Positions 1-21,776 of a DNA stretch of 29,637 bases are shown here, piece after piece. Below the pieces are notes generated by a model. It had not been told where the DNA came from, made no database searches, and saw only the letters and a program-made list of their open reading frames with translations. The stretch is from the NCBI GenBank assembly GCA_019136325.1, contig JAGVUJ010000339.1, positions 1 through 29,637 of the forward strand, in the 5' to 3' direction. Each line of letters starts with the position of its first letter. The first letter of the stretch is position 1. Made by a program: the position numbers and the translations under genes. This DNA comes from Deltaproteobacteria bacterium (GTDB taxonomy: Bacteria > Desulfobacterota > Syntrophia > Syntrophales > Smithellaceae).

Positions 1-705
1 AACATTTTCCGCCGAATCATTGATCCCCGGAATGACCGGCATACGCGCCTGTATATTGTTCCCGCGCTCCGAGAGTCTTGTGAAATTCTCCAGAATGAGC
101 GTGTTCCCTTTCCCGGTGTATTCTTGATGCAGTGTTTGATCCATGACCTTCAGATCAAAATACACACCATCAATCAGATCCATGAGGGGCTCAGCGGAAG
201 GCCACCGGAAATATCCGCAGGTCTCGATCATGACATTTACCCCCGCTTCCCTGAGCATGGTTACAAATGGATAAAGAAAGGAGCTGTGCAACAGGGGTTC
301 ACCTCCCGAAAGGGTCACCCCGCCCCCTGATTCATCAAAAAACTCACGGTCTTTGAGCACTCCCCCGACAAGGTCTTCAACGTTCCACTCCTTCCCGATG
401 ATTCGAAGCGCCCCGGTACTGCACTGCTCAGCACACCTGCCGCACGCACTGCACCGTGAAAAATCAATGTTGACCTCTCCGGTCCATGATAATGCATTCT
501 CGTTACAATGGGACACGCATTCGCCGCAGCCCATGCACCGCCCCCTGAAGAATGCGAGTTCCGAATGGTTCCTCCGGGACTCGGGATTCTGGCACCACCG
601 GCATCGCAGGGGGCATCCTTTAAAGAACACCGTCGTCCTGATCCCCGGACCATCATGGAGACAAAACCGCTGAATATCAAAGATTAATGCCGTGTGCTTA
701 TCCAT
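1..705 (-). CDS. Glycyl-radical-enzyme activating protein (radical SAM), 3' end cut by window edge
   Basis: Enzymes of this family use S-adenosylmethionine and a [4Fe-4S] cluster to place the glycyl radical on a partner enzyme. The visible 235 residues begin MDKHTALIFD. They carry the radical-SAM signature Cx3Cx2C (C31, C35, C38, within GCPLRCRWCQNPE) and two ferredoxin-type Cx2Cx2Cx3C motifs (C57/60/63/67 and C85/88/91/95). An SGGEP motif follows at 133-137, then the ETCGY and DLK strands of the TIM barrel. The two extra clusters mark the subfamily serving enzymes such as benzylsuccinate or alkylsuccinate synthase, hydroxyphenylacetate decarboxylase and glycerol or choline lyases, rather than the short pyruvate formate-lyase activase. 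The start is the ATG at 705-703 behind a weak GGTGG. The partner enzyme is not visible and probably lies left of the window. The gene diverges from a FadR-like regulator and has an operator-like palindrome just upstream. The family is certain; the substrate is unknown. Confidence 0.93.
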   Translation of the reverse strand, partial: MDKHTALIFDIQRFCLHDGPGIRTTVFFKGCPLRCRWCQNPESRRNHSELAFFRGRCMGCGECVSHCNENALSWTGEVNIDFSRCSACGRCAEQCSTGALRIIGKEWNVEDLVGGVLKDREFFDESGGGVTLSGGEPLLHSSFLYPFVTMLREAGVNVMIETCGYFRWPSAEPLMDLIDGVYFDLKVMDQTLHQEYTGKGNTLILENFTRLSERGNNIQARMPVIPGINDSAENV

Positions 706-718
706 GATCCACCATAAA

Positions 719-731
719 TTGGTATTACCAA
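719..731. promoter_or_regulatory. Operator-like palindrome, FadR/GntR type (site 1)
   Basis: TTGGTATTACCAA is a perfect inverted repeat with 6-bp arms around a central T, and it extends to ATTGGTA/TACCAAT. It matches the TGG-N5-CCA layout of FadR-subfamily operators. It lies 14 bp upstream of the activase start, where a bound regulator would block that gene. That the neighbouring FadR-like protein binds it is inference. Confidence 0.6.
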
Positions 732-812
732 TAAATGCAATATAGTTTACTTAATATAATATTACCACATAATTTAAATAAATGCTTGCATTTTTTTAAA
801 TTAATTGGCATT

Positions 813-825
813 TTGGACTTACCAA
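813..825. promoter_or_regulatory. Operator-like palindrome, FadR/GntR type (site 2)
   Basis: TTGGACTTACCAA shares the TTGG-N5-CCAA frame and the whole right half TTACCAA with site 1 and has the same length. It ends 24 bp before the regulator's ATG, a suitable place for autoregulation. The two centres are 94 bp apart, close to nine helical turns. A further TTACCA half-site lies at 762-767 in the AT-rich stretch between them. Confidence 0.5.
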
Positions 826-849
826 ATTGTTTTAAAAAGGAATTTCATC

Positions 850-1596
850 ATGGGTAACAAGACATCATCCCTCGTGGAACGTGTAGTCAGTAAGATAAAG
901 CACGATATCATGGCCGGTACGCTCCCGCCGGGCAGCAAGCTGCCCCCGGAAAGGGATCTTGCAGCAAGATTCAGCGTCAGCCGGATTACCATCCGCACGG
1001 CAATCTCCAAGCTGGCCAACCTCGGATTTGTCCAGACCATGCCACAAAGCGGAACGATCATCAGGGACTTCTGGAACGACGGAAGCCTCGACCTGCTGAT
1101 TGACGTGGTTTCGAGCAGTGAGCCGGTTGACCGGAACATACTCGTATCGCTCCTTGACCTGAGGAAGATTGCTGAAGTCTATGCTGCGGGACGCGCCGCC
1201 CAGGCCATGAACGAGGAGGATATAACAAACCTGTCCGGAATCATCGACGCGATGGAAGCGGCAGGAAATTCAGTGACGGCAATCATTGAACTCGACTATG
1301 CCCTGCACGCTTACTTCATTCGTAAAGCAGGGAACCGCGTTATTCAGCTGATCTTCAACTCATGCAAGCCCGTGTACATGTTTTACCTGGAGTTCTTCTA
1401 CCGGATACCTGACAGCAAAGCGTTGATGCTCCCCTATTACAAAAAGCTCATCGAAGCAGCCAGGACGAAAGACGGGGCCTATGCCTCATTCATCATGGAA
1501 CAGCTTTTGCTGGCCGCGGAAAACGCTGTAAAAATGAAACTTGATCCGGAACAATCAGCAATAATACTGCGGTCGCTGCTCCCGGCATCTGAATAA
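850..1596 (+). CDS. FadR-like GntR-family transcriptional regulator
   Basis: This 248-residue regulator has an N-terminal winged helix-turn-helix at about residues 8-72, with the GntR signature LPPGSKLPPERDLAARF followed by VSRITIRTAISKL. The C-terminal part resembles the acyl-CoA-binding domain of E. coli FadR rather than a generic FCD domain. Shared landmarks recalled from FadR are DFW near residue 73, an ELDY block followed by GN and an LI.N pattern, and a downstream YxKL. That suggests a fatty-acyl-CoA or similar CoA-thioester effector (inference). The ATG at 850 was chosen because AAAAAGG lies 9 nt upstream. An in-frame TTG at 805 would put operator site 2 inside the coding region and lacks a ribosome site. 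The gene is divergent from the activase and converges on the kinase gene at 1620. Confidence 0.88.
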   Translation: MGNKTSSLVERVVSKIKHDIMAGTLPPGSKLPPERDLAARFSVSRITIRTAISKLANLGFVQTMPQSGTIIRDFWNDGSLDLLIDVVSSSEPVDRNILVSLLDLRKIAEVYAAGRAAQAMNEEDITNLSGIIDAMEAAGNSVTAIIELDYALHAYFIRKAGNRVIQLIFNSCKPVYMFYLEFFYRIPDSKALMLPYYKKLIEAARTKDGAYASFIMEQLLLAAENAVKMKLDPEQSAIILRSLLPASE

Positions 1597-1619: not shown

Positions 1620-2612
1620 TTAATAACTTTTGCGGGCAAGGATGGTTTCGCATTCGGTTGCCAGATCGCTGAGTTGATCAAGTCCGCCTGCGTTGTCTAT
1701 CGCAATCAATAAATTCTCCAGACCGTTGGGAATATGATGGAGAAATGCGGTTTTGTGTTTTTTGAGACCGAGAAATCCGTATGCTCCCAGCGCCTGTAAA
1801 AGACGCTGCACCGAGCCCATCCAGAAATTATGAACAAACTCATCGCGGTTGTAAGAAGGCTTCATAAGTTCATAATAAAAGTCCAGCAACTCGTTTCTTT
1901 CTCCATCTTCAAAAGTGACGTAAGGATCACAGATGAGCGATCCGAGATCGTAAAACAGACAGCCCTGGCGCATGCCTTGAAAGTCAATCAAAACCGGCCG
2001 GTCGTTTTTAATCATAATGTTTTGCGACTGGAAATCGCGATGAATCAGGGATAGTTCTGTTTTCTGCAGACGTTCGGAAAGCGCATCCAGTTCTTTATTC
2101 AATTTCCCGGCATCCGCAGGTGTTAGTTTTATTTTGCAGACTTCCCAGACAAGATTCTCCAGAAAATAATCGTGCTCCCATTTATAGAGCCTTGGACCGT
2201 AACTTTCAGAGAGTTGCACATCTTCGGGAAGTGATTTCGGATCAAAGGAATGCAGGCGGTAAATCTGCGTGAGCGCCTGAAAATAATAATCACGTCGTTC
2301 TTCCCATGGTTCAAATCTGAGCGACCACAAATCAGTATCGCCCAGATCCTCAATTAAAATAAAATGCCGAGAGACATCCTGGATAATAATACGAGGCACA
2401 TTCATTTTTAATGATACCATGAATTTGCTGATGCCGATCCAATGAGCGTTTTCCGCGACTTCATCACCGTAATGCATAAAAACAAAACTGTCTCCATGAG
2501 GCAGCGTTACTCTGAAAAATTGACGGTCGGAACCACCCTTCTTGATCGGCTCAAGCTTAAAATCGGTTTTCCCCAGATGTTCAGTCAAAAATTTTTGTAT
2601 TTCTTTCTGCAT
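1620..2612 (-). CDS. amgK: APH-fold sugar kinase, probable MurNAc/GlcNAc anomeric kinase AmgK
   Basis: This is a 330-residue protein of the aminoglycoside/choline kinase fold. Its catalytic loop is HRDFQSQN (H191, D193, N198) followed by the metal-binding IDFQ (D210), and the N lobe includes GGSDRQFFRV. In Pseudomonas and relatives, AmgK of similar length phosphorylates N-acetylmuramic acid (and GlcNAc) at C1. MurU then makes UDP-MurNAc, bypassing de novo synthesis. The next gene in the same direction is MurU-like and an AmpG-like permease follows, which supports this reading over antibiotic resistance or choline metabolism. A 247-bp repeat-filled gap separates it from murU, so the two may not share a tight operon. 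It converges with the FadR-like gene, 23 bp between stops. The fold is sure and the substrate is inferred from context. Confidence 0.75.
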   Translation of the reverse strand: MQKEIQKFLTEHLGKTDFKLEPIKKGGSDRQFFRVTLPHGDSFVFMHYGDEVAENAHWIGISKFMVSLKMNVPRIIIQDVSRHFILIEDLGDTDLWSLRFEPWEERRDYYFQALTQIYRLHSFDPKSLPEDVQLSESYGPRLYKWEHDYFLENLVWEVCKIKLTPADAGKLNKELDALSERLQKTELSLIHRDFQSQNIMIKNDRPVLIDFQGMRQGCLFYDLGSLICDPYVTFEDGERNELLDFYYELMKPSYNRDEFVHNFWMGSVQRLLQALGAYGFLGLKKHKTAFLHHIPNGLENLLIAIDNAGGLDQLSDLATECETILARKSY

Positions 2613-2644
2613 ATTTTCCTTAAACGCTTTTCAATAATCAAGCT

Positions 2645-2859
2645 TTATTAGGCTTTTCAAAAATGCCCAGATGCAAGGCGCGCCAGAAATGAGTCGTGAA
2701 GCGTATATTTTAATACGTTGAGCGACGCGCTTTGCAGCGCAACGCCGCAGACCATGGTGCCCTTCAGGGTATAGGCGTTTTTCATCCCACGGCACCATGT
2801 GCCGGGGATAGTTCAACTTGCGCTTCGAACTTCGCTAGGCTCGTTCTTAGCGAGTTTCA
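2645..2859. repeat. Composite dispersed intergenic repeat between amgK and murU
   Basis: No convincing gene is present. On the minus strand the element starts at the murU stop codon as TTTTAGTGAAACTCGCTAAG, close to the sequence at the gspE stop (23566 onward). It goes on with AAGTTGAACTATC, also found after gspE as AAGTCGAACTATC. On the plus strand, GTGCCCTTCAGGGTATAGGC at 2757-2776 resembles GTGTCCTTTAGGGTATAC after dapF. It also holds imperfect inverted repeats such as GGCACCATGTGCC and a pair around GCGCTTTGCAGCGC. These shared pieces identify a repeat family rather than unique sequence. Confidence 0.65.
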
Positions 2860-3573
2860 CTAAAAGACTATCTCGCGAAGCCTGTTATATTCTTCAACCG
2901 TGCCCACATCATACCATGAACCATCGTCAATCACTACAGCGCCGACCGAACGCGGATTTTCTTTAATCATCTCCACCAGCGGCAAGACGATCGATTCTAT
3001 TTTGCCCGCCGTCAATCGTTTCAGAAAAGATTTTTCTACAATATAGATTCCGGCAAACAGGCATTTCTTTACACCGTCATTTTTCAAGATGTGCCGCATG
3101 TCGCAGACGAAACCTTCCTGGTCAACATTGACATTGAGTAGCGGCCCTTTTGAGCGCAGTGCCAGCGTGACGGACGTTTTCAGTTCGAAATGTTTTCGAA
3201 TCAGCAGTTCAATCGGCATGTTGGTGATGATGTCGCCGTTGTAAACGATGATACGTTCGTCCTCGGCGATCAGGTCTTCGATGTTTTTGATGCCGCCCGC
3301 CGTATCCAGCAGAACCGGTTCATGACGAAACGTAATTGGAATCCCTTTCCAGTTATTTTCAGGAAATACCTCGGCGTATTTTCCCGCGCAGTGATGCGTG
3401 TTAACGATAAAGCGTTTCACACCGACAGCGCGCAGATGCCCCATCGCGTAAGTTATAATCGGATAGCCGTCGATTTCCAGAAGCGGCTTGGGCGTATTTT
3501 CAGTGAACGGCCTGAGCCGTGTTCCCAACCCCGCTCCTAAAATAAATGCCGTATTGATTTGTTTTAGTTGCAT
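2860..3573 (-). CDS. murU: Nucleotidyltransferase, probable MurNAc-1-phosphate uridylyltransferase MurU
   Basis: This 237-residue sugar-1-phosphate nucleotidyltransferase carries the nucleotide-binding loop GAGLGTRLRP at 13-22 followed by TPKPLL. A metal-binding NGD (D114) and a C-terminal WYDVGT complete the set. Its length fits MurU (about 225 residues) and is shorter than typical RmlA or GlmU enzymes, with no left-handed beta-helix domain. MurU turns MurNAc-alpha-1-phosphate plus UTP into UDP-MurNAc in cell-wall recycling. An AGAGG ribosome site lies upstream and only 6 bp separate it from the AmpG-like gene, so the two are almost surely cotranscribed. The stop codon coincides with the edge of a dispersed repeat. 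A mannose- or glucose-1-phosphate enzyme is the main alternative. Confidence 0.78.
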   Translation of the reverse strand: MQLKQINTAFILGAGLGTRLRPFTENTPKPLLEIDGYPIITYAMGHLRAVGVKRFIVNTHHCAGKYAEVFPENNWKGIPITFRHEPVLLDTAGGIKNIEDLIAEDERIIVYNGDIITNMPIELLIRKHFELKTSVTLALRSKGPLLNVNVDQEGFVCDMRHILKNDGVKKCLFAGIYIVEKSFLKRLTAGKIESIVLPLVEMIKENPRSVGAVVIDDGSWYDVGTVEEYNRLREIVF

Positions 3574-3579
3574 GCTTTT

Positions 3580-4887
3580 TCAACCTCTTGATTCTTTACC
3601 CATTTTTTTGCCATATCCCGGGTCAATTTTTACTAATGCCGCCACGATAAAGCCTGGAATCGTTGTAATTAAAATCCAGATGAAGAAATTCTGATAGCCC
3701 AGCATATCCTGTATCCAGCCGCTGCTCATTGCCGGAATCATCATGCCCAGCGCCATGATGCCCGTGCCAATGGCATAAAAAACCGTCTTATAACTTCCCT
3801 GCGAAACCATGATCATATACATCGTGTAGGCGGTGAAGCCGAATCCGTAACCGAATTTTTCCACCGCCACGGCGGAACCGATCAACCACAGATTCTGAGG
3901 CAGGGCATGGGAAAGATAGACAAAAATCAAATCCGGCAGATGCATGATAAATACCATCGGCCAGAGCCAGAACCTCAGGCCGTTGCGGTAAATAACGTAG
4001 CCGCCCAGAAGCCCGCCCAGCATCAGCGCGATCACACCGACCGTGCCGTAAATAATGCCGACATCAGCCGTCGTTAAACCCAGACCGCCTTTGCCCGGCG
4101 CATCCAGCAGAAACGGCACGACCATTTTGGTGAGTTGCGCCTCGGCAAAACGGTAGAACAGAAAAAAGAATATGATGACGAGAATATCTTTACGCCGGAA
4201 AAACAAGGTCAGCACGCGGAAATATTCCGCCAGAAAGTTTTTGGATTTATCCCACGGCGCGCTGACATCCCCGGCAGGTTTCGGAAGCGCAAAAACATGA
4301 TAGATGAAAAACGCCAGAAAAAGAGCGCCCACACCAATAAAGGCCAGCGACCAGGCCCGAGCCGCCGGAAAGCCGTATTTTTCCAGCATGCCCACCAGAA
4401 ACACCAGCCCGCCTTCGGCGGCAATCGTGGCAATCCGGTAAAAAATAACGCGCACACCGACAAACGCAGCCTGCTGCGGCGTGTCCAGCCCCAGCATATA
4501 GAAACCGTCGGCGGCGATATCGTGCGTGGCGGAACTGAAAGCCATGATCCAGAAAATCGCCAATGAGTAGCGCACAAAATTTGTCGCGGGCAATGTCAGG
4601 GCAACACAGGCGAGCGAAGCGCCGATCGCCAGTTGCATGGCCAGTATCCAGAAACGCTTGGTGCGGAAGATATCAACAAACGGGCTCCACAGCGGCTTGA
4701 TCACCCAGGGAAGATAAAGCCAGCTCGTATAAAAAGCGATTTCGGTATTGGAAAGCCCCATATCCTTGTACAGCACGACGCTGACCGTCATGGCAATCAC
4801 GTAGGGAATGCCTTCGGCAAGGTAGAGAGTCGGCACCCAGAACCATGGAATCCGGCTCGTATTATTGATTGTTTTTGTCTCGGACAT
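3580..4887 (-). CDS. ampG: AmpG-like MFS permease (muropeptide uptake)
   Basis: This 435-residue integral membrane protein shows about 12 hydrophobic segments. Near the N terminus it has YLAEGIPYVIAMTVSVVLYK, then WVIKPLWSPFVD, the MFS loop equivalent to KFLWSPLMD of E. coli AmpG. FSSATHDIAADGFY corresponds to the FCSASQDIVFDAW region of AmpG. AmpG imports anhydromuropeptides released by lytic transglycosylases. It lacks the extra C-terminal helices of the 491-residue E. coli protein. It is transcribed with murU (6-bp gap) and lies downstream of a SpoIID-like gene, so the context fits peptidoglycan recycling. The start ATG has AAGAGAA upstream. Transport of another solute cannot be excluded, because AmpG-like MFS proteins are broad. 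Confidence 0.78.
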   Translation of the reverse strand: MSETKTINNTSRIPWFWVPTLYLAEGIPYVIAMTVSVVLYKDMGLSNTEIAFYTSWLYLPWVIKPLWSPFVDIFRTKRFWILAMQLAIGASLACVALTLPATNFVRYSLAIFWIMAFSSATHDIAADGFYMLGLDTPQQAAFVGVRVIFYRIATIAAEGGLVFLVGMLEKYGFPAARAWSLAFIGVGALFLAFFIYHVFALPKPAGDVSAPWDKSKNFLAEYFRVLTLFFRRKDILVIIFFFLFYRFAEAQLTKMVVPFLLDAPGKGGLGLTTADVGIIYGTVGVIALMLGGLLGGYVIYRNGLRFWLWPMVFIMHLPDLIFVYLSHALPQNLWLIGSAVAVEKFGYGFGFTAYTMYMIMVSQGSYKTVFYAIGTGIMALGMMIPAMSSGWIQDMLGYQNFFIWILITTIPGFIVAALVKIDPGYGKKMGKESRG

Positions 4888-7605: not shown

Positions 7606-8259
7606 ATGGAAAAAGACTTTGACCAGATGAATTATTACGAAATGCTGGACATCGGCACGAAGGCGACCGCGGCGGAAATCCGCAGCGCCTACAATGTCGC
7701 GCTGCAGATGTATCAGTCCGATTCCCTGGTCAGCTATTCTTTTTTCTCGAAAGAAGAGCGTGATAAAATCCTCTCGCTGATCGACAAGGCTTATTTCACG
7801 CTGATCAATGAAGCGCAACGAACCAAATATGACGATGAAATGAATTTGTCCGGAACGTCCGTTTCCGCAGATCAAAGCAAAGCCGGCATCCAACCGGTCA
7901 ATATTTTTGAATTTAACCGTCAGGACATGGCTTTTCTGGCGCGAAAAAATAATAAATCGGAATTAAAAACAAAAATATCCCAAAGCCAGTCGATCAGGGA
8001 GATTCTTTCCCGGCAAAAGATAACCGGCGCCGACCTCAAAACCATCAGAGAAGAACTGGGGGTGGCTGTCGAAACCATTCATCAGGAAACAAAAATCCGT
8101 CTGGATTACTTAAATGACATTGAAGAAGACAAAACGGGAAAACTGCCTGCGCCCGTTTTTCTCAAGGGTTTTATCAAGGCTTATTTAAAAAGCATCTGCA
8201 TCGAGAAAGCCGATGAAATCAGCGCTGTTTACATGAGCGGTTTGCCCGGCAAAAATTAA
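7606..8259 (+). CDS. Degenerate J-domain protein with RodZ-like HTH domain
   Basis: This protein has 217 residues and two modules. Residues 9-77 follow a DnaJ J-domain pattern: NYYEMLDIGTKATAAEIRSA, then a helix with DKAYFTLINEAQRTKYDDE. The catalytic HPD is replaced by Q37-S38-D39, so stimulation of DnaK is unlikely. Residues 142-213 match the cytoplasmic HTH of RodZ/HTH_25 proteins: LKTIREELGVAVETIHQETK, then YLNDIEED, LPAPVFLKGFIKAY. No transmembrane helix follows, unlike RodZ. It sits 19 bp after the MinD-like ATPase gene and is probably cotranscribed with it. The linker (about 80-125) is polar. The domains are clear but the biological role is unknown; an adaptor for the ATPase is an inference. 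Confidence 0.8.
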   Translation: MEKDFDQMNYYEMLDIGTKATAAEIRSAYNVALQMYQSDSLVSYSFFSKEERDKILSLIDKAYFTLINEAQRTKYDDEMNLSGTSVSADQSKAGIQPVNIFEFNRQDMAFLARKNNKSELKTKISQSQSIREILSRQKITGADLKTIREELGVAVETIHQETKIRLDYLNDIEEDKTGKLPAPVFLKGFIKAYLKSICIEKADEISAVYMSGLPGKN

Positions 8260-8260
8260 C

Positions 8261-8290
8261 TTGACAGGGTTAATCTTTAGTGTTCATTAT
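8261..8290 (+). promoter_or_regulatory. Candidate sigma-70 promoter for the FnIII lipoprotein
   Basis: A perfect -35 box TTGACA (8261-8266) is followed after 18 bp by CATTAT (8285-8290, four of six matches to TATAAT). It starts one base after the upstream stop codon and would give a leader of about 125 nt before the lipoprotein ATG. The prediction is by eye only. Confidence 0.4.
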
Positions 8291-8422
8291 TCGTCAAAAT
8301 CACGACATGAAAAATTCCAGAAGCGCCGGCAATTCAAGTCCGCATTCATCCGACAATGCACAGGTTTTAAGAGGCTCTTTCCGGCTTTTTTCATACAAGG
8401 CAATGGATCCAAAGGAGTATAA

Positions 8423-9421
8423 ATGAGAAAAAAAATATTATATTTATTGCTGATAAGTCTGGCGGTAATTTTTATCGGCGCGTGCTCTGACGATGATGTC
8501 AGTATCGATGACGATCCTTCCGATTCCGATTATTTGACCGTGCAAATGAGGGCCGATGCCGGCGACGGCGAAGTGACCCTTGACTGGCAAATGCTTCCCC
8601 GGGCTGAAACGTACAGCATTTATTATCTGGAAGACGATGATGAAGGTCAACCCGGTTCGCAAAAAATGAAATCTCAGGGCACAAAAATAGATGGAGAAAC
8701 AAACAATATCATTAGCGCCCCTTATGCTGTAACCGGCCTGGAAAACGGAAAGACATACTGGTTCGCCCTTTCCGCTAAAAATTCCGAGAATGTGGAAAGC
8801 GAATTGTCGCAGGCAATTTACGCGACGCCCGAAGATGATCCGCCGTTACCGGCGCCCAAAAATGTGCGCGCCAATGCCGGGAATAAAGAGGTCACGGTAA
8901 CGTGGGATGCCGTAACCGGCGCGAACGGATATAAAGTCTATTACTACACGTCTTTCGCAAATTACAAGGAGAGCCCCCAAATCACAAGCAACGCCTATAC
9001 CTTCACGGGACTTAACAATGACCAGGCCTATGTTTTCTTCGTCGCGGCGGAGGACAATGATGATGATAGCGATAGCGGGGACAGCAGCGCTTCTTTTGCA
9101 TACACAACGAAACCCAGCGCAACTCCGCCCCCTTCCGCTCCTCAAAATCTTCATGTCGTCAATCGCGGAGAGGGGTTTGTCGACCTGGCGTGGAATCCCC
9201 CGACATTTTACACAGGAACATTAACCTATAATGTTTATTTCTTTACAGCCAGCAATATCACGAAATCCACCGCTCAGAAAGGCGCTTCAAACTGGACGGG
9301 TACCAGCACCAGAGCGGCAGGCCTGGATAAAGAAAAAACATACTATTTTGTCGTAACGGCTCTGGATAACAACGGGGAAAGCGCGGAATCAAGGGAAGTT
9401 TTCGCAGTGCCTGATTTATAG
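8423..9421 (+). CDS. Lipoprotein with three fibronectin type III domains
   Basis: This 332-residue protein starts with a lipoprotein signal, MRKKILYLLLISLAV then FIGAC, with C21 as the lipidated residue. An acidic Asp/Ser-rich spacer (22-36) follows. Three FnIII-like repeats then occupy about 38-137, 143-231 and 238-332. Each shows the E-V-T-L-x-W / V-x-V-x-W strand, a Y-x-[VI]-Y-Y strand and a GL-x-N-x-x-x-Y-x-F-x-V-x-A strand. There is no catalytic domain, so a binding or spacer function at the cell surface or in the periplasm is likely. AAAGGAG lies 5 nt before the ATG. It stands alone between its own promoter candidate and a strong terminator. Its place next to the T2SS operon makes it a possible export client, but nothing in the sequence proves that. 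Confidence 0.85.
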   Translation: MRKKILYLLLISLAVIFIGACSDDDVSIDDDPSDSDYLTVQMRADAGDGEVTLDWQMLPRAETYSIYYLEDDDEGQPGSQKMKSQGTKIDGETNNIISAPYAVTGLENGKTYWFALSAKNSENVESELSQAIYATPEDDPPLPAPKNVRANAGNKEVTVTWDAVTGANGYKVYYYTSFANYKESPQITSNAYTFTGLNNDQAYVFFVAAEDNDDDSDSGDSSASFAYTTKPSATPPPSAPQNLHVVNRGEGFVDLAWNPPTFYTGTLTYNVYFFTASNITKSTAQKGASNWTGTSTRAAGLDKEKTYYFVVTALDNNGESAESREVFAVPDL

Positions 9422-9450
9422 AAGGCCGGAAATCCCTATCAATAAACTTG

Positions 9451-9484
9451 CAATAAAAAAGGGCTGAAGAGCCCTTTTTTATTG
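9451..9484 (+). terminator. Strong symmetrical rho-independent terminator
   Basis: Perfect 15-bp arms CAATAAAAAAGGGCT and AGCCCTTTTTTATTG enclose a GAAG tetraloop, with U tracts on both strands because the arms include A6/T6. It ends the lipoprotein transcript 30 bp after its stop and could work in both directions. It separates that gene from the T2SS operon. Confidence 0.9.
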
Positions 9485-9529
9485 CATCGGAGAAAAAGGC
9501 CGGACAGGGAGCCTGTCCAAGGCGCGGGA

Positions 9530-9557
9530 TTGAATCAAAATGAAATTTATGTTAAAT
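9530..9557 (+). promoter_or_regulatory. Candidate promoter of the T2SS operon
   Basis: TTGAAT (9530-9535), a 16-bp spacer and TTAAAT (9552-9557) lie about 40 bp upstream of gspF and after the terminator. A promoter is expected here, but the match is modest. A short hairpin GGACAGG-GAG-CCTGTCC at 9502-9518 lies just upstream. Confidence 0.3.
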
Positions 9558-9593
9558 GCACGGATAAGCTAACAGCACAAGCAGAAAAAATTT

Positions 9594-10820
9594 ATGAGTG
9601 TTTTTGAATACATCGCTTTAGATGCAACAGGCCGGCAGCTGAAGGGTTTCGTCGATGCGCCGGGCATGGCCGCGGCGCGTCAGAAATTGCGGGAAGAAAA
9701 TATCTATCCCGTGGAAATCAATCAGGCGGAAGTAAAAAAAGATTCCGCCGTTTCAGCGGCTATGAAAATCAATCTCTGGGAAAGGGTATCCGCCGGTCAG
9801 GTCGCCGTTTTCACCCGCCAGCTATCCACTTTATTGGGAGCGGGAATGCCGCTGGTGCCTTCTCTTTCCATTCTGATGCAGCAGGAAAAAAATCCCCTGT
9901 TAAAAAAGTCGCTGGCGCAAATCCGCGAACAGGTCACCGAAGGAAAAAGTCTGACGGAAGCCATGTCGGAATTTCCCCGCATCTTTCCTCCTTTTTATCT
10001 GAACATGGTCAGAGCCGGTGAGGCTTCGGGAACCATTAATCTGGTTTTGGAGCGGCTGGCCGATTTCAGTGAAAATCAGCAGGCGTTGATGAGCAAAATT
10101 CGTTCCGCTCTTGCCTATCCTATTATCATGTTCATTATGGGCAGCGCCGTCATATTTCTTTTAATGACCTTTGTCGTTCCCAAAATCACGACTATTTTTA
10201 CCGACATGAACCAGACGCTGCCTCTGGTAACCGTTGTTTTAATCAAGGTCAGCAATTTTCTGAAAGCGTTCTGGTGGCTTATTCTGATTCTGCTTTTTGC
10301 CGGAATCGCTGCTTTTAAATACACGACGGCGGGAACCGACACGGGCAAACGCTCCTGGGACAATATGAAGCTGAAACTTCCGGTCATGGGACAGATCAGC
10401 CGCAAAATCGCCATAGCCCGGTTTTGCCGTACGCTGGCCACCCTGCTGCAAAGCGGCGTGCCGCTCCTGGCAGCGATGGAAATTGTGCGTAATATCGTCA
10501 ACAACGTTGTCATCGGCGACGCCATTCATCAGGCCGCCAGAGACCTGGAGGAAGGCAAGGGGCTTTCCGGTCCGCTGAACAAAAGCGGGTTGTTTCCCCC
10601 GCTGGTTACGGAAATGATTGCCGTGGGAGAACAAAGCGGTACGCTGGAGGCGATGCTCAATCGGATTGCCGTCGCTTACGAAAATGAATCGCAGGCGAGT
10701 ATCATGATCATGACATCGCTTCTGGAACCGGTGATGATACTGGTAATGGGTCTGGTGGTCGGTTTTATTGTTGTGTCCATTTTACTGCCGATATTTGAAA
10801 TGAACCAACTTGTCCGATGA
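9594..10820 (+). CDS. gspF: T2SS inner-membrane platform protein GspF
   Basis: GspF is the polytopic core of the type II secretion platform that contacts the GspE ATPase. The 408-residue length is standard. It opens with the family start MSVFEYIALDATGRQLKGFV and has two GspF domains. Each carries the FTRQLSTLLGAGMPL-type signature (about residues 73-90) or its second copy FCRTLATLLQSGVPLL (about 278-293). It has three hydrophobic segments near 170-195, 225-245 and 375-400. There is no strong Shine-Dalgarno before the ATG. It is the first gene of the operon here, 110 bp after the terminator, and 169 bp separate it from gspG, the longest gap inside the cluster. Confidence 0.95.
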   Translation: MSVFEYIALDATGRQLKGFVDAPGMAAARQKLREENIYPVEINQAEVKKDSAVSAAMKINLWERVSAGQVAVFTRQLSTLLGAGMPLVPSLSILMQQEKNPLLKKSLAQIREQVTEGKSLTEAMSEFPRIFPPFYLNMVRAGEASGTINLVLERLADFSENQQALMSKIRSALAYPIIMFIMGSAVIFLLMTFVVPKITTIFTDMNQTLPLVTVVLIKVSNFLKAFWWLILILLFAGIAAFKYTTAGTDTGKRSWDNMKLKLPVMGQISRKIAIARFCRTLATLLQSGVPLLAAMEIVRNIVNNVVIGDAIHQAARDLEEGKGLSGPLNKSGLFPPLVTEMIAVGEQSGTLEAMLNRIAVAYENESQASIMIMTSLLEPVMILVMGLVVGFIVVSILLPIFEMNQLVR

Positions 10821-10882
10821 TGATTATGTCAAGAAACCGTGTGCTGCATTGCGCGTCGTTCTTTGTTACGGAAACCGGCATA

Positions 10883-10920
10883 AAAGAAGGCCTCACTCCT
10901 GCCTTGACTGTGGCCTCTTT
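10883..10920 (+). other. Hairpin in the gspF-gspG gap
   Basis: AAAGAAGGCC (10883-10892) can pair with GGCCTCTTT (10912-10920) with one bulged A and a 19-nt loop. It is not followed by a U run, so it is not a standard terminator. It could be an mRNA processing or stability element that lets the abundant major pseudopilin gene gspG be expressed differently from gspF (inference). Confidence 0.3.
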
Positions 10921-10989
10921 ACAAAACCACGCAAAATATGGCACATGTTATATAAAGATGAGTTATATTGAATAAAAAAAGGGGGCATT

Positions 10990-11442
10990 ATGAAACTTTT
11001 CCGACATCATAAAAACTCTCAGGCGGGTTTTACCCTGATCGAATTGATGGTTGTCATCGTCATTTTGGGCGTACTTGCCGGTATGATTATTCCTCGTATC
11101 ATGGGACGTCCCGACGAAGCCAGGCAGGCCAAAGCAAAAATACAAATGGAAGCCATGGAATCGGCATTGAAGCTTTACAAGCTGGATAACGGCGGTTACC
11201 CGACGACAGAGCAGGGATTAAAAGCTCTCGTGGAGGCGCCGACCGTGGGAAACATCCCCAAGAACTGGCGTCAGGAAGGTTATCTCGAAAAAGGCAAAGT
11301 GCCCAAAGATCCATGGGGAAATGAATTTGTCTATTTAAGTCCCGGCAGCCATGGCGATTTCGATTTATCATGTCTGGGTAAGGACGGTGAAGCCGGAGGC
11401 GAAGGTGTGGATCAGGACATCAACAACTGGGAAATGGAGTAA
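10990..11442 (+). CDS. gspG: T2SS major pseudopilin GspG
   Basis: This 150-residue major pseudopilin forms the pseudopilus shaft. The type IV prepilin leader is cut at G13^F14 (SQAG^FTLIELMVVIVILGVL), with Glu at mature position 5. The globular part shows GspG hallmarks: LDNGGYPTTEQGLKALVEAP, then KDPWGNEFVYLSPG and a C-terminal DLSCLGKDG, the region of the calcium site in known GspG structures. AGGGGGC precedes the ATG by a few bases. The gene end overlaps the start of gspH by about 38 bp. A prepilin peptidase (GspO) is needed for maturation and is not in the window. Confidence 0.96.
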   Translation: MKLFRHHKNSQAGFTLIELMVVIVILGVLAGMIIPRIMGRPDEARQAKAKIQMEAMESALKLYKLDNGGYPTTEQGLKALVEAPTVGNIPKNWRQEGYLEKGKVPKDPWGNEFVYLSPGSHGDFDLSCLGKDGEAGGEGVDQDINNWEME

Positions 11443-11956
11443 ACGCGGATTTACTCTGGTGGAATTGCTGCTGGTCATCGCGCTGATCGGCGTGATACTG
11501 GTACTGGCCGTTCCTTCCACACGGGATGTTCTGACCGGCGACACACTCAAGAAAACATCGCGCCAGTTGATCGGTCTGGAGAGAGATTTACGGACACAGG
11601 CCGTTCGCGATCAACTGGACTATATTCTTTCGCTGGATTTATCGGAATCCGCCTACTGGGTCACCGCTTCCGATATGACGGCGGAAAAGCAGGATGAGAT
11701 AAAAAAACGCGCCCTGTCTCTGCCGGCGGATGTTGTCATTACCGATGTTGTGGATGAAAACAACAAAAAGAAAACCGCGGGCGAAGCCAAAATCATCTTC
11801 AAAAAAAATAATATTTGTTCACCGAGGATCATTCATCTGGCCTACAAAGAAGACAAAATGACCATCGTCATCAATCCTTTTCTGGGGGTGACCGATATTT
11901 ACGACAAATATGTTGATATTCCCATCAACGCGTCCGGAGAACAGGTGCCCCGGTGA
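11405..11956 (+). CDS. gspH: T2SS minor pseudopilin GspH
   Basis: GspH is a minor pseudopilin near the pseudopilus tip. I chose the GTG at 11405: GGAGG (11395-11399, inside gspG) lies 5 nt upstream. This gives a 15-residue leader ending in SKRG^FTLVELLLVIALIGVIL with the required G, F and E5. An in-frame ATG at 11351 would give a 33-residue leader and lie deeper in gspG. The product is then 183 residues, normal for GspH, with GDTLKKTSRQLIGLERDLR typical of the N-terminal helix. The 38-bp overlap with gspG suggests translational coupling. It ends 11 bp before the preferred gspI ATG. Confidence 0.9.
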   Translation: MWIRTSTTGKWSKRGFTLVELLLVIALIGVILVLAVPSTRDVLTGDTLKKTSRQLIGLERDLRTQAVRDQLDYILSLDLSESAYWVTASDMTAEKQDEIKKRALSLPADVVITDVVDENNKKKTAGEAKIIFKKNNICSPRIIHLAYKEDKMTIVINPFLGVTDIYDKYVDIPINASGEQVPR

Positions 11957-11967
11957 AGGATATCGTC

Positions 11968-12339
11968 ATGAAGCAGGCGGGGAAAAAAGGATTTACGCTG
12001 ATGGAGGTGATGGTGGCCATGGCGATTCTGGCCATTGCTCTCGTTTCCATTTTCCAGCTTCAGTCGCAAAGCATTTCCATGGCGACGGATTCACGTTTTC
12101 TGACCACGGCCGCGCTTTTAGCCCAGAGCAAGATGGTCGAGATTGAAACACAATCCACGTTATCCAACAAAACGGAAAGCGGGGATTTCGGTCCCGATTA
12201 CCCTCAATATGCCTGGCAGCTGGTGATAGACGATACCCAGTTGCTCCAATTCAAAAAAATCGAGGTCACGGTAACCAACAAATTGTTTCTGACCCGCGGG
12301 ATCTACAAGCTTGTTCTTTATAAAAAGCCGGGAACGTAA
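11968..12339 (+). CDS. gspI: T2SS minor pseudopilin GspI
   Basis: This minor pseudopilin has 123 residues, with a leader MKQAGKKG^FTLMEVMVAMAI cut after G8. The helix AIALVSIFQLQSQS leads to the GspI-like LAQSKMVEIE segment, and YAWQLVIDDTQ follows. I chose the ATG at 11968 because AAGGA lies 7 nt upstream and the leader has typical length. A GTG at 11953 overlapping the gspH stop (GTGA) is the alternative. Only 3 nt separate its stop from gspJ. Confidence 0.92.
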   Translation: MKQAGKKGFTLMEVMVAMAILAIALVSIFQLQSQSISMATDSRFLTTAALLAQSKMVEIETQSTLSNKTESGDFGPDYPQYAWQLVIDDTQLLQFKKIEVTVTNKLFLTRGIYKLVLYKKPGT

Positions 12340-12342
12340 AAC

Positions 12343-13011
12343 ATGAACCATCGACGTTTAAAAAATAATATCGGTCGCGGCGGATTTACGCTCGTGGAAA
12401 TTCTTATTGCAATTTTCATCCTTTCGCTGGTTATGGCTACAGTTTATGTTTCTTACACCGGCACCCTGAAAACATCACGCCAGCTGGAGGAAGAAGGCGA
12501 CATTTATAAAATGGCGCGCACGGTGTTGGAACGGATGACCCGGGATTTGTCTTCCCTGCAGATGTCCGAAGGCGCTTACACTCTGATCGCCGAAAAAAAC
12601 AAAACAGGCAACCGGCAATTCCACGCCGTTTATTTCTGGTCGGCATCCCATCTCGCTTTTAGTGAGACGGAAAGCGAAGGACGTCCGGCCGCCGTCGGTT
12701 ATTTCGTCCGGGAAGATGATGGAGGACAAAGCTATGCGCTGTGGAGATCGGATGTCCCCGGCATCAAACCGGATGAAATCAAACAACAGGAGAAAGGTTT
12801 TATCATTTGTAAAAATATTGAAGCCTTCGGATTGACGTTTTACGATGCCGCCGGAGAAGAAAATGACACATGGGATACGTCCCTAAGCGGAGGAATCCAT
12901 CAGGACAAGGCGCCGGCCGCCGTCAGGATAGAACTCGTTCTGATCAATCCGAATGATCGGGAAAAGCCGTATAAATTTATGACAAAAGTATTTCTACCGG
13001 CCAGCAGGTAA
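12343..13011 (+). CDS. gspJ: T2SS minor pseudopilin GspJ
   Basis: This 222-residue minor pseudopilin is cleaved at G14^F15 (RGG^FTLVEILIAIFILSL). The helix goes on with ATVYVSYTGTLKTSRQLE and RTVLERMTRDLSSLQM, the RM..DL pattern typical of GspJ. With GspI and GspK it forms the tip complex in studied systems. The start lies 3 nt after the gspI stop, and the gene ends 2 nt before gspK, so the three are translationally linked. Confidence 0.93.
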   Translation: MNHRRLKNNIGRGGFTLVEILIAIFILSLVMATVYVSYTGTLKTSRQLEEEGDIYKMARTVLERMTRDLSSLQMSEGAYTLIAEKNKTGNRQFHAVYFWSASHLAFSETESEGRPAAVGYFVREDDGGQSYALWRSDVPGIKPDEIKQQEKGFIICKNIEAFGLTFYDAAGEENDTWDTSLSGGIHQDKAPAAVRIELVLINPNDREKPYKFMTKVFLPASR

Positions 13012-13013
13012 GA

Positions 13014-13988
13014 ATGATGAAAAACAAAATTCTAAACAACAAGGGCATCGCCCTGATTACAGTCATCCTCATCATTGTCATTCTGGTCGCCGTCGTCATT
13101 GAATTGAACAGGTCGTCCCGCGCCGACATTTACGCCGCCGCCAATCTCAGTGACGGCATTAAATTAACCTACATCGCCAAGTCGGGCTTTTATGGCGCGG
13201 CGGCCTTGTTGACCAATTCCACCAGCAATCACACGACTCTGCGAGACGACTGGGCGAATATGGAAACAGTATCCCTAAGGTCCAACACGCTTTTCCCGGA
13301 AGGATACTTTATCGCCAAGATCGAGGATGAAGCGGGGAAAATCCCGCTGAACAAACTGGTCAATGGCGAAGAATACAATGCGGACGTCAAGGCCATGCTC
13401 GGCAGACTGCTGGCGCAGCCGGAATTCGCTCTGGAGGCCAGGAAAATTGATGAAATTATTGATTCCATCAAAGACTGGATCGACGGAGACGATAATACCA
13501 CCGGCTTCGGAGCGGAAAGCGGTTATTACGAATCCCTCGATCTGCCCTACAAAGCGAAAAACGCTCCGTTTGATTGCATTGAAGAATTGCTTATGGTAAA
13601 GGGGATAACCAAAGAAATATTTTACGGAACAAAGGACAGACCCTCATTGGCCAGATACATTACCACAGACAGCGAAGGATTGATTAACATCAATACGGCG
13701 CCGAAAATAATTTTGCGTTCTTTGAGCGACGAAATCAGCGTCGATCTGGCCGACAGAATTGACGAATATCGTACGGAAGAAAGCACTGATCTGTCGGGAA
13801 ATCAATGGTATAAGCAGGTTCCCGGCATGGAAACGATAACGATTAACCAGGATCTGATTACAGTGAAAAGCAATTATTTCAAAATCACATCCACCGGTAA
13901 AATCAATAATATGACCAAAACAATCACCGGAATTGTTCTGAAACAGGATCCCAACCAGGTCAAAATCATTAAATGGAGACAGGATTAA
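13014..13988 (+). CDS. gspK: T2SS minor pseudopilin GspK
   Basis: GspK, 324 residues, is the large tip pseudopilin. The leader MMKNKILNNKG^IALITVILI is cut after G11 and, as is normal for GspK, the mature helix lacks Glu5. The body shows the family segments EDEAGKIPLNKLV, DEIIDSIKDWIDGDD and LININTAPKIILRSL, the last being a helix-hairpin-helix-like SAM element. A second ATG at 13017 would remove one residue. The TAA stop shares its last base with the gspL ATG. Confidence 0.94.
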   Translation: MMKNKILNNKGIALITVILIIVILVAVVIELNRSSRADIYAAANLSDGIKLTYIAKSGFYGAAALLTNSTSNHTTLRDDWANMETVSLRSNTLFPEGYFIAKIEDEAGKIPLNKLVNGEEYNADVKAMLGRLLAQPEFALEARKIDEIIDSIKDWIDGDDNTTGFGAESGYYESLDLPYKAKNAPFDCIEELLMVKGITKEIFYGTKDRPSLARYITTDSEGLININTAPKIILRSLSDEISVDLADRIDEYRTEESTDLSGNQWYKQVPGMETITINQDLITVKSNYFKITSTGKINNMTKTITGIVLKQDPNQVKIIKWRQD

Positions 13989-15511
13989 TGCCGCAGAACG
14001 TTCTGGGACTGGAAATCGGTCAAAGCACCATCAAAGCCGTATTGCTGGCCAAAAGAGGTCTGACCGGCGGCCGCATCCTCGACGTCCGTGTTCTGGACAT
14101 AGACACCTGCGGAGGCGTTGAACCGGCGCTGAAGAAACTGGCTGATGATAAAAGTTTCGCCGGATTTCCCTGCAGTGTTTCCGTGTCTCCCCGGGACATG
14201 CTGTTCCGCCATGTTCAACTTCCTTTCCGCGACGACAATAGAATCAGAAAAACCCTGCTTTTCGAATTGGAGCCTCTCATTCCCCTGCCCATTGAAGACG
14301 TGATCGCCGATTACCTGATCATGCCCCGCGGCGGATTGCTGGTCGGAATCCTGAACAAAAAAAACGTTCGCGACATCACGGAACTCGTGGAAAATAATCT
14401 GGGGAACGTTGTATCCGTCATCGACGCATCTCCGACGGCGCTGGCGGCTCAGATAACAGACAACAAAAAGGTGGCCGGAAGTAAAATCATTCTGGACATC
14501 GGCCGCATGTCGACATCCGCGACATTTTATGAAGATGACGCAATGATTCACGTTCGTTCGCTGGCCTTTGGCGGTGAACAGATAACCCGGGCCATGGCCG
14601 CGGATCTCTCCGTGGACAGAGACGGTGCGGAGAAATTGAAAATCAGCGGCGGCTATTCCGAAACGATCATGAACACGAATGAGGCGTGCCGCCGGTTTTG
14701 TGCAGAGCTCAAAAACACCGTCGAGTACATGAAGATCAACGGCGTCATGCAAAACGAACCGGGACAAATCCTCTTAACCGGCGGAGGGGCTTTGTTCGCC
14801 CCGCTGTGCAGAGAGCTGGGCAATCATTTTTTCTGCCCGCTGGAAACGCTTGATCTCATCAAGAGCAAATCCCTGGAAGTGGAAAAAAATATTGCCGGCC
14901 GCATGCAGCCGGCAATCATGAACACGGCCGTTGCCGCAGCGTTGAGAATTTCCGCCGGGAAAAAATCGTTCAACTTTCGCCAGGAAGAATTTGCAGCAAG
15001 ACGGTCGCGTTTTAATTTTAAAAATCAATTACGATGGGCGTCTGTCCTGGCTGGAATCATTATTCTGCTGGCGGCGGCCAATCAGATTCTCGACTACAGT
15101 TTAAAAACGCGACAGCTTAACGGCGTCAAAAAAGAAATTTCCCGGATTTTCAAAAGCAGTTTCCCGGACGCGCAAGCCATGGTGGATCCCGTGCAGCAAT
15201 TGGAGACAAAAATTGCCGAAGACAAAAAAACATTCGGGTTCGGCGAAGGCTTGTCCGAAACAACGGCCATTGAAATTCTGAAAGACATCTCCCGCCTGAT
15301 TGTCCCCTCGCTGGATGTCGTCTTAACCGGATTGAATTACGAGAACAGGGTTATTTCCATCAAAGGCGAAGCCAAAACGATCGATGAGGTTACCTCGATT
15401 AAAAACGAACTTATGAAATCTAAATATTTTCAGGACGTGACCATGGGATCAACCAGTCTGACCAAAGACGGCGGCAAGGTTGATTTCAGTTTAAGGATTG
15501 AAGTCAAATGA
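13988..15511 (+). CDS. gspL: T2SS platform protein GspL (PilM-like, with PilN-like C terminus)
   Basis: GspL couples the cytoplasmic ATPase GspE to GspM and the pseudopilus. The 507-residue protein has an actin-like cytoplasmic domain with GLEIGQSTIKAVLL, ILDIGRMSTSATFY and ILLTGGGALFAPL. A single transmembrane segment lies near 350-370 (WASVLAGIIILLAAA) and a periplasmic ferredoxin-like domain follows. It is longer than typical 400-residue GspL, and the full-size PilM-like part followed by a PilN-like part recalls a fusion of the two type IV pilus proteins. The ATG at 13988 overlaps the gspK stop (TAATG) and has GGAGACAGGA upstream; an in-frame ATG at 13973 is less likely. It overlaps gspM by 4 bp (ATGA). 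Confidence 0.88.
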   Translation: MPQNVLGLEIGQSTIKAVLLAKRGLTGGRILDVRVLDIDTCGGVEPALKKLADDKSFAGFPCSVSVSPRDMLFRHVQLPFRDDNRIRKTLLFELEPLIPLPIEDVIADYLIMPRGGLLVGILNKKNVRDITELVENNLGNVVSVIDASPTALAAQITDNKKVAGSKIILDIGRMSTSATFYEDDAMIHVRSLAFGGEQITRAMAADLSVDRDGAEKLKISGGYSETIMNTNEACRRFCAELKNTVEYMKINGVMQNEPGQILLTGGGALFAPLCRELGNHFFCPLETLDLIKSKSLEVEKNIAGRMQPAIMNTAVAAALRISAGKKSFNFRQEEFAARRSRFNFKNQLRWASVLAGIIILLAAANQILDYSLKTRQLNGVKKEISRIFKSSFPDAQAMVDPVQQLETKIAEDKKTFGFGEGLSETTAIEILKDISRLIVPSLDVVLTGLNYENRVISIKGEAKTIDEVTSIKNELMKSKYFQDVTMGSTSLTKDGGKVDFSLRIEVK

Positions 15512-16077
15512 TCAAAGAGCTCTGGAATAAACTGGATGCCAGACAGCGCAAACTTGTCGCCGGTGCGGCCCTGTTTGTCCTTTTCGCGCTGGTGATGGAG
15601 TTAGCCGTTTTTCCCTTCTGGGAAGCAAAAAAGAAACTGGACAGATCCATCGACGTCAATCAGAAGAAACTGACCGCGATCAAGAAACTTTCCGAAGAAT
15701 CTAATCGGCTGGAATCAAAAATTTCAGCGATACGGAGAGCCTCTTCCCTGCGCGGCCCCAACTTTACGCTGTTTTCCTATCTGGAAAAAAAGGCGACGCA
15801 GGCCAATGTCAGAGGAAGAATCAAATACATGAATTCGTCCAGAGGAACGCAATCAGGCGCTTTTGAGGAATCCCTGATTGACATGAAACTGGACAAGATT
15901 ACCGTCAAACAACTGACCGATTTTCTTTACTACGCCGAATCGCCCGCCGATCTGGTGAGAATAAAGAAAATCAGCATCAATAAGATGAAGGAAAATCCGG
16001 AATATTTAAGCGTACAGGTGCAGATATCGTCCATTCAACCGTCGGATCAATCTCTACAGGATACAAGGTCGCGATGA
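15508..16077 (+). CDS. gspM: T2SS platform protein GspM
   Basis: This 189-residue bitopic inner-membrane protein has a short cytoplasmic start (MIKELWNKLDARQRKL), one transmembrane helix at about 17-38, a coiled-coil segment (about 40-78, rich in Lys/Glu/Leu) and a ferredoxin-like periplasmic domain. This is the GspM/PilO layout, although sequence identity in this family is low. It overlaps gspL (ATGA) and gspN (ATGA), so all three are translationally coupled. The assignment rests on architecture plus position between gspL and gspN. Confidence 0.85.
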   Translation: MIKELWNKLDARQRKLVAGAALFVLFALVMELAVFPFWEAKKKLDRSIDVNQKKLTAIKKLSEESNRLESKISAIRRASSLRGPNFTLFSYLEKKATQANVRGRIKYMNSSRGTQSGAFEESLIDMKLDKITVKQLTDFLYYAESPADLVRIKKISINKMKENPEYLSVQVQISSIQPSDQSLQDTRSR

Positions 16078-16892
16078 AAATACTGAAAAAAAAGGCATTA
16101 TGGCTCACGCTTTACGCAATAGGCATCACGCTGGTCTTTCTGTACCTGCTGTTTCCCTCGGATATCGTCAAAAACAAACTGGAGGAATCCGTCAGTTCCT
16201 CCGATTTCATTCTGAAGACCGGATCATTAAATCCGTCTCTGCCCTTCGGTTTGAAAATAAAACATGTAAACCTGAGTTCGGGGTCTTCGTCGAACGTTTT
16301 TTTCCAGGGAGAAACGCTGGATGTGCAGTTCCATCCGTTCAATGTGTTCCGGAAGAAAAAACAAATCGGCCTCAGCGGAAAAGCATACGGAGGCAATTTT
16401 TCCGGACATTTCCAAACGGCGACTTCCGGTTTTTATCCGCCGCGGGAAGGATCGTTGAAATTTAAAGATATTGATCTGGGCGAATACGCCTTCTTAAAAA
16501 CACTGACCGGCAAACATATAACCGGGAAGGCAAGCGGCAACTGGACGCATTCGTCCGGCGGCAACGGCGGCGGAAATCTTTCCGGAACCATGGCGCTTTT
16601 TCTGAACAAAGGCTCTTATCCGCTGGCGGAACCTTTTTTAGGGCTGAGCCGGATTGATTTCGACCGGGGAGAAATTCAGGCCAAACTGGAGAACCGGGTG
16701 ATCAAAATCGAAAAACTGCAAATCTTCAGCCCGCAGATGGATTGCGTTCTGAGCGGCGAAATTGCGCTGGCGGACGACTTCAAAAACAGCTCGATCAATC
16801 TGAGCGGTGAAATGATCCTATCCGGCAGAAAGGTTAAAATGAATATTCATATTGAAGGAACGATAGCCAATCCTTCTCTGCGCTATATGTAG
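16074..16892 (+). CDS. gspN: T2SS protein GspN (AsmA-like)
   Basis: This 272-residue protein has one N-terminal transmembrane helix (about 8-27) and then a long repetitive beta-rich region with the pattern typical of GspN and the wider AsmA/bridge-like group, for example NPSLPFGLKIKHVNLSSG and GEIALADDFKNSSINLSG. GspN is an accessory T2SS component absent from many systems; its exact task is not settled. It overlaps gspM by 4 bp and precedes gspC by 8 bp. The last gene of the window (DUF748) has a related general architecture. Confidence 0.85.
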   Translation: MKILKKKALWLTLYAIGITLVFLYLLFPSDIVKNKLEESVSSSDFILKTGSLNPSLPFGLKIKHVNLSSGSSSNVFFQGETLDVQFHPFNVFRKKKQIGLSGKAYGGNFSGHFQTATSGFYPPREGSLKFKDIDLGEYAFLKTLTGKHITGKASGNWTHSSGGNGGGNLSGTMALFLNKGSYPLAEPFLGLSRIDFDRGEIQAKLENRVIKIEKLQIFSPQMDCVLSGEIALADDFKNSSINLSGEMILSGRKVKMNIHIEGTIANPSLRYM

Positions 16893-16900
16893 GTAAGTGT

Positions 16901-17824: not shown

Positions 17825-17846
17825 CGGATCCGAGAGAGCAATCAAT

Positions 17847-18713: not shown

Positions 18714-18746
18714 CGGGAGTCGGAAATTCTTGACCAAAGGGATATT

Positions 18747-19532: not shown

Positions 19533-19539
19533 CGTCAAG

Positions 19540-21756: not shown

Positions 21757-21776
21757 TTTTGAAGGTCTGATACGAT

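Follow-up and report, generated by a model that had tools for sequence, protein, structure and literature searches.

A FadR-subfamily regulator with predicted operators beside a glycyl-radical-enzyme activase gene in a Smithella-like bacterium

Introduction

Operators of the TGGTNNNACCA type are the form of the FadR-subfamily class of transcriptional regulators, and the site of Escherichia coli FadR has a CNG core. Glycyl radical enzymes (GREs) are oxygen-sensitive; to our knowledge, many of their subfamilies still lack an assigned substrate, and their control is poorly understood. For FadR, PMC4259882 gives R35, R45, T47 and R49 as DNA-contact residues and G216, S219 and W223 as acyl-CoA residues. 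Here we describe a FadR-subfamily regulator gene and a GRE activase gene that stand back to back, in divergent orientation, at the left end of a 29,637-nucleotide stretch of a Smithellaceae contig (JAGVUJ010000339.1; the whole stretch is hereafter the window). With a probability of roughly three in four, the regulator is a FadR-family repressor that acts locally, on its own gene and on the single activase-GRE unit to which it is dedicated, and the enzyme of that unit is an uncharacterised GRE of the eliminase type, not an alkylsuccinate synthase. The new point is a conserved operator common to two FadR-family lineages found beside two different GRE clades. Regulator family, gene pairing, operator conservation and the GRE class of the relatives were obtained by computation.

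The regulator and its divergent activase

The regulator (248 amino acids (aa), positions 850 to 1596, forward strand) was assigned to the FadR subfamily of the GntR superfamily from Pfam, NCBIfam, PDB and predicted-fold comparisons, with an N-terminal GntR winged helix-turn-helix domain and a C-terminal FCD/FadR_C ligand domain. Its start is the ATG at 850; an in-frame TTG at 805 would lengthen the protein. The GntR, FCD and FadR_C models scored 70.2, 55.8 and 52.3 bits, all above their gathering scores, and the E-values (1e-19, 8e-15 and 8e-14, respectively) mean that these matches are not due to chance. The FadR-like regulator proposed earlier from the DNA alone (the original prediction) is therefore supported at the level of the subfamily. 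Both top NCBIfam models are FadR equivalogs, NF003444 (82.5 bits, cut-off 189) and TIGR02812 (81.6 bits, cut-off 249.2), and the regulator falls far short of both cut-offs. FadR entries were also best in the PDB sequence search, the top one being a chimera with E. coli FadR, and Foldseek placed FadR first by E-value when queried with the predicted structure (pLDDT 86.3; seven helices between residues 95 and 231). The predicted fold itself is tied between FadR and the small-acid sensors among FCD regulators.

On the reverse strand, positions 1 to 705 encode the N-terminal 235 aa of a radical-SAM GRE activase, whose C-terminal end lies beyond the left window edge. This partial protein matched TIGR02494 ('glycyl-radical enzyme activating protein') with 283.2 bits against a cut-off of 174.35, and both genes were found where the original prediction had placed them. 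The activase shares 53% identity with that of locus L002 and 50% with that of L058, and in each of these two loci a GRE follows the activase; identity to the activases of L058, L098 and L099 is 50-51%. The window's own GRE gene is expected behind the activase, to the left of the window.

Recurrence of the regulator-GRE pairing

Relatives were collected in several ways. A protein search returned a tight clade of four further regulators (P0002-P0005, with 87, 80, 68 and 50% identity) before identity fell to 29%. A scan of GTDB contigs returned four loci, with full relatives in L001, from a Desulfobacterium metagenome-assembled genome (MAG), and L002, from a Spirochaetes MAG. Profile searches built on these two matched 55 of the 395 genomes in the phylum to which G001 belongs (E 1e-25) and 47 of the 392 in that of G002 (E 1e-30); in two orders, at E 1e-40, there were matches in 12 of 155 genomes and in 14 of 24. 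The final set of 83 regulator loci consists of 80 of the better-scoring regions together with the window, L001 and L002.

Group A holds 15 of these loci, namely the window, L001, L002, L055-L058, L095, L096, L098, L099 and L115-L118. The GRE is divergent from the regulator in L001 and L002, and the order in L002 is regulator, activase, GRE. Group-B regulators are 27-34% identical to the query regulators, and their usual order, in one direction, is regulator, 838-aa GRE, activase and a PNPOx-like protein (2 of 4 of the latter that were scanned exceeded the Pfam cut-off). Group G (L097, L100, L101, L107, L109 and L110) has the GRE type of group B and a regulator closer to group A. The regulator stands beside one gene cluster in group C (13 loci), the scanned member of which is an MR_MLE enzyme, and beside GlpD-like and FAD_binding_4 genes in group D (8 loci); no GRE was found within 1.5 kb in either group.

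Overall, a GRE lies within 1.5 kb of the regulator in 47 of the 83 loci. Among regulators scoring at least 240 bits, which are the 15 group-A loci and L097 of group G, the proportion is 14 of 16. The two misses are the window and L095, in which the contig runs out 804 and 156 bases, respectively, beyond the 5' side of the regulator, and the window's stretch shows the activase. The regulator tree requires 2 changes of the GRE label and none of 500 shuffles was that low, in a quick tree in which near-copies help and five rows were labelled without a GRE in view. Further, the window-like regulators P0003 (80% identity) and P0004 (68%) lie on single contigs that measure 16,193 and 35,177 bases. 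GREs P0124 and P0127, which share 69 and 68% identity with the L002 GRE, have the same source and single contigs of equal length, so that these two GREs seem to be the neighbours of the two regulators. The regulator-GRE module, which recurs in other anaerobes, is real, and this recurrence supports a dedicated circuit for GRE control such as was originally proposed.

A conserved predicted operator

Two operators were predicted between the divergent genes. Operator 1 (TTGGTATTACCAA, positions 719 to 731) lies 14 bp from the activase start codon and, by sequence, is an exact match to the TGGTNNNACCA type expected of the FadR subfamily. Operator 2 (TTGGACTTACCAA, positions 813 to 825) lies 25 bp before the regulator ATG and 94 bp from operator 1, and departs from the TTGGTNNNACCAA form by one arm base. 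A perfect TGGTNNNACCA is present upstream of 12 of the 15 group-A regulators, including the window's, and the group-A upstream regions contain 21 perfect sites in 7,155 bp, compared with 1 in 210,640 bp elsewhere. Allowing up to three arm mismatches gives two sites in 12 of the 14 group-A loci with divergent genes. Perfect sites also occur at 6/6 loci of group G, 22/26 of group B, 9/13 of group C and 7/8 of group D, with differing central triplets.

Exact copies of TGGTATTACCA were counted in 11 of the 14 genomes holding a group-A locus. Of the 24 sites found, 12 belong to group-A loci and are spread over 8 of the 11 genomes, five are at group-B loci (two of them assigned from coordinates) and seven are elsewhere. 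All seven of the latter fall within open reading frames (ORFs) of at least 100 aa, and the 3.5-6 kb around them gave no GRE, activase or regulator match. Groups A and B have one operator in common in the five genomes that contain both (G133, G335, G369, G467 and G558).

These distributions bear on the possibility that the adjacency is incidental and that the regulator controls only itself and distant genes. Such an arrangement would sit easily with a GRE that lies outside the window, with the other genes adjoined by group C and D relatives and with the 36 of 83 loci that lack a GRE within 1.5 kb; it is at odds with the GREs adjacent in all close loci except the two that are cut off, and with the confinement to ORFs of every exact site away from such loci in the 11 genomes. 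We consider it most improbable.

The probable class of the controlled enzyme

Pyruvate formate-lyase has two adjacent catalytic Cys residues; the PDB title of 1cm5 names C418 and C419. All 17 group-A GRE rows show one Cys only, within a GCVE motif, so that the enzyme adjacent to these regulators does not look like pyruvate formate-lyase. A neighbouring pyruvate formate-lyase, which the original prediction had named as a finding that would count against it, was thus not encountered in the relatives. Their GREs are eliminase-type, with a fold nearest to diol and glycerol dehydratases, Cys-x-Glu and a conserved Asp. They are not nearest to the alkylsuccinate and benzylsuccinate synthases MasD, AssA and BssA, and stand well apart from (1-methylalkyl)succinate synthase, which counts against the suggested link to n-alkane activation by fumarate addition. 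For seven GCVE-clade GREs (L001, L002, L055-L058 and the second GRE of L067), every NCBIfam equivalog was far under its cut-off, and TIGR01774 scored 612-658 bits, just below its cut-off of 678. Several GREs of these types are named 'formate acetyltransferase' in public records; they look unlike both pyruvate formate-lyases and alkane-activating enzymes, a point of importance when Smithella-type metagenomes are interpreted.

Two GRE types can stand at one locus: in six group-B loci (L035, L067, L068, L126, L127 and L129), the 838-aa GRE (motif GCLEN) is accompanied by another that belongs to the GCVE clade. Moraxella osloensis is an aerobe, and its plasmids pYHS2 and pSKB0120-5 (L139 and L140, positions 7911-11286 in each) carry an activase and a GRE that shares 47% identity with the L002 enzyme. 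No FadR-family gene is annotated alongside; in the GRE tree the plasmid enzyme groups with the L057/L115-L118 subclade. Other neighbours of group-A GREs include a 331-aa 2-hydroxyacyl-CoA-dehydratase-like protein (L001, 5865-7267) and a conserved 129-aa hydrophobic protein (L055, 8803-9192). In L057 (4941-6506), a 318-aa Cys-rich protein without a Pfam match precedes a DUF2878-like protein that narrowly misses the Pfam cut-off.

The ligand pocket

The FadR landmarks that had been noticed in the regulator are all present in the window protein, as DFW at 73-75 (N-F-W in FadR), ELDY at 147-150, GN at 161-162 and YxKL at 197-200. Across 18 group-A rows they are partly kept (W75 in 4, E147 in 9, D149 in 16, Y150 in 14, G161 in 12, N162 in 18, Y197 in 16 and L200 in 13). 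The four FadR DNA contacts (R35, R45, T47 and R49) are retained in 18/18 rows. Of the FadR acyl-CoA residues, S219 and W223 face a gap in 18/18 rows, and the G216 column has Ala in 14, Gly in 3 and a gap in 1, both being weak observations, as the end of the alignment is gappy.

The FCD metal-ligand columns (Asp and three His) were taken from E. coli LldR. In group A, D149 is kept in 16/18 rows and H153 in 18/18; the third His is Tyr197 in 16/18, as in FadR, and the fourth position, filled in 17 rows, is His in none of them. The canonical metal-FCD site is therefore absent, and the pocket retains Arg105, which is kept in 18/18 rows, together with half of the metal site.

The acyl-CoA sensing originally suggested was not supported. 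In that reading the regulator would be a true functional FadR, sensing long-chain acyl-CoA and coupling fatty-acyl-CoA levels to a GRE that activates hydrocarbons (alkylsuccinate synthase). We regard this as very unlikely, even with FadR models and entries as the best NCBIfam and PDB sequence matches, the Foldseek ranking by E-value, the invariant Arg105 and a Smithella-like host in its favour. The profile comparison proposed at the outset gave FCD a slightly higher score than FadR_C, an outcome that the original prediction had itself named as counting against it; the fold is tied, and the acyl-CoA residues are mostly Ala (G216) or without aligned counterpart (S219 and W223). There is an even chance that the regulator is instead a small-acid sensor, which is compatible with the proposed dedicated repressor. 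Its FCD-like pocket would bind a short hydroxy-acid, a dicarboxylate or a short-chain CoA ester derived from the GRE product, as PdhR, LldR and DhdR bind theirs, perhaps without a metal. The replacement of the third metal His by Tyr and the lack of the fourth weigh against this reading.

Proposed mechanism and its weighing

We infer a repressor role, a ligand from the GRE pathway and a window GRE of the same clade as those of the relatives. A regulator dimer would bind palindromes like TTGGTATTACCAA between the two divergent genes, where one site just ahead of the activase start and one ahead of the regulator's own start would allow both transcripts to be blocked. The GRE substrate, or a compound made from the GRE product, would then free the regulator from the DNA. 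Repression of both divergent transcripts suits the window because the sites stand just before both start codons.

Several points weigh against a dedicated repressor of an eliminase-type GRE. The GRE class of the window is carried over from the relatives, the gene itself lying outside the window. The reversed pattern, used as a control, was counted 19 times in those 11 genomes, compared with 24 for TGGTATTACCA, so that the number of sites is near chance and their placing is what is informative. In the window alone, at least two TTGGNNNNNCCAA sites arose in 15 of 100 shuffles, so the pair is not rare. The operators of L001 and L055 are degenerate, L099 has a single weak site, and both sites of L116 and L117 lie at least 94 bp from either start codon, a poorer fit to a simple block. 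In addition, the GRE of L055 belongs to another subclade though the regulators of L055 and L001 share 79% identity, and the GRE of L056 falls in yet another. Regulator identity therefore does not fix the GRE.

More broadly, it is possible, at slightly less than even odds, that several FadR-family lineages have specialised on GREs in anaerobes. At least two of them (groups A and B, approximately 30% identical) would stand at two GRE clades with the same TGGTATTACCA, and in the five genomes containing both they could cross-act as one small GRE regulon, the ligand of which would name the GRE substrates. Because the operator is shared and conserved, the ligand, and so the GRE substrate, is testable. 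Where an orphan GRE is linked to a regulator and an operator that are both conserved, finding the compound that releases the regulator should reveal the substrate or product of the enzyme.

Host and other genes

The Smithella-like host that was first suggested is a fair description, given that Syntrophaceae (71%) and Smithella sp. (70%) were the first named among the matches listed in a search with the window's GspD. An APH-type kinase, a nucleotidyltransferase and an MFS-like transporter follow consecutively at 1620-4887, a row that we take to be reminiscent of the AmgK-MurU cell-wall recycling set. A type II secretion set (GspF, G, H-like, K, L-like, N, C, D and E) occupies 9594-23570, amid which an XrtA/PEP-CTERM-type ATPase, under its cut-off, lies at 17847-18713. 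The open-ended 407-aa ORF at 28417-29637 had no NCBIfam match at E 0.001.

Among the wider set of loci, six of the 13 in group C (L059, L103-L106 and L119) have the regulator divergent from an MR_MLE-like gene, with two perfect TGGTNNNACCA sites 21-22 bp apart. FadR-family regulators were also found in L044-L051, with GlpD-like and alkyl-DHAP-synthase-like (FAD_binding_4/FAD-oxidase_C) neighbours in L049 and L046; their operators, such as TGGTCGGACCA, presumably resemble the site of E. coli FadR.

Comparison with known systems

The window regulator shares with E. coli FadR the subfamily, the domain order, the FadR_C match (52.3 bits), the ELDY, GN and YxKL landmarks and the DNA contacts R35, R45, T47 and R49. 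It differs from FadR in having no aligned S219 or W223, His instead of Phe at 153 and Pro in place of H65; the operator core here is ATT instead of CNG, and the target is a GRE rather than fad/fab genes. The FCD regulators (DhdR, PdhR, LldR, CitO and TM0439) have in common with it the FCD match (55.8 bits), the tied predicted fold, Arg105, D149 and H153, and an operator of the TGGTNNNACCA type, the general form of the class. In contrast to them, the third metal His is Tyr in 16/18 group-A rows and the fourth is absent. As for the enzyme, (1-methylalkyl)succinate synthase (MasD/AssA) and benzylsuccinate synthase are different, MasD scoring 224 bits versus 488 for the best solved GRE. The closest known GREs are the glycerol and 1,2-propanediol dehydratases (1r8w, 5i2g and 9rco) and A. 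fulgidus PFL2 (2f3o).
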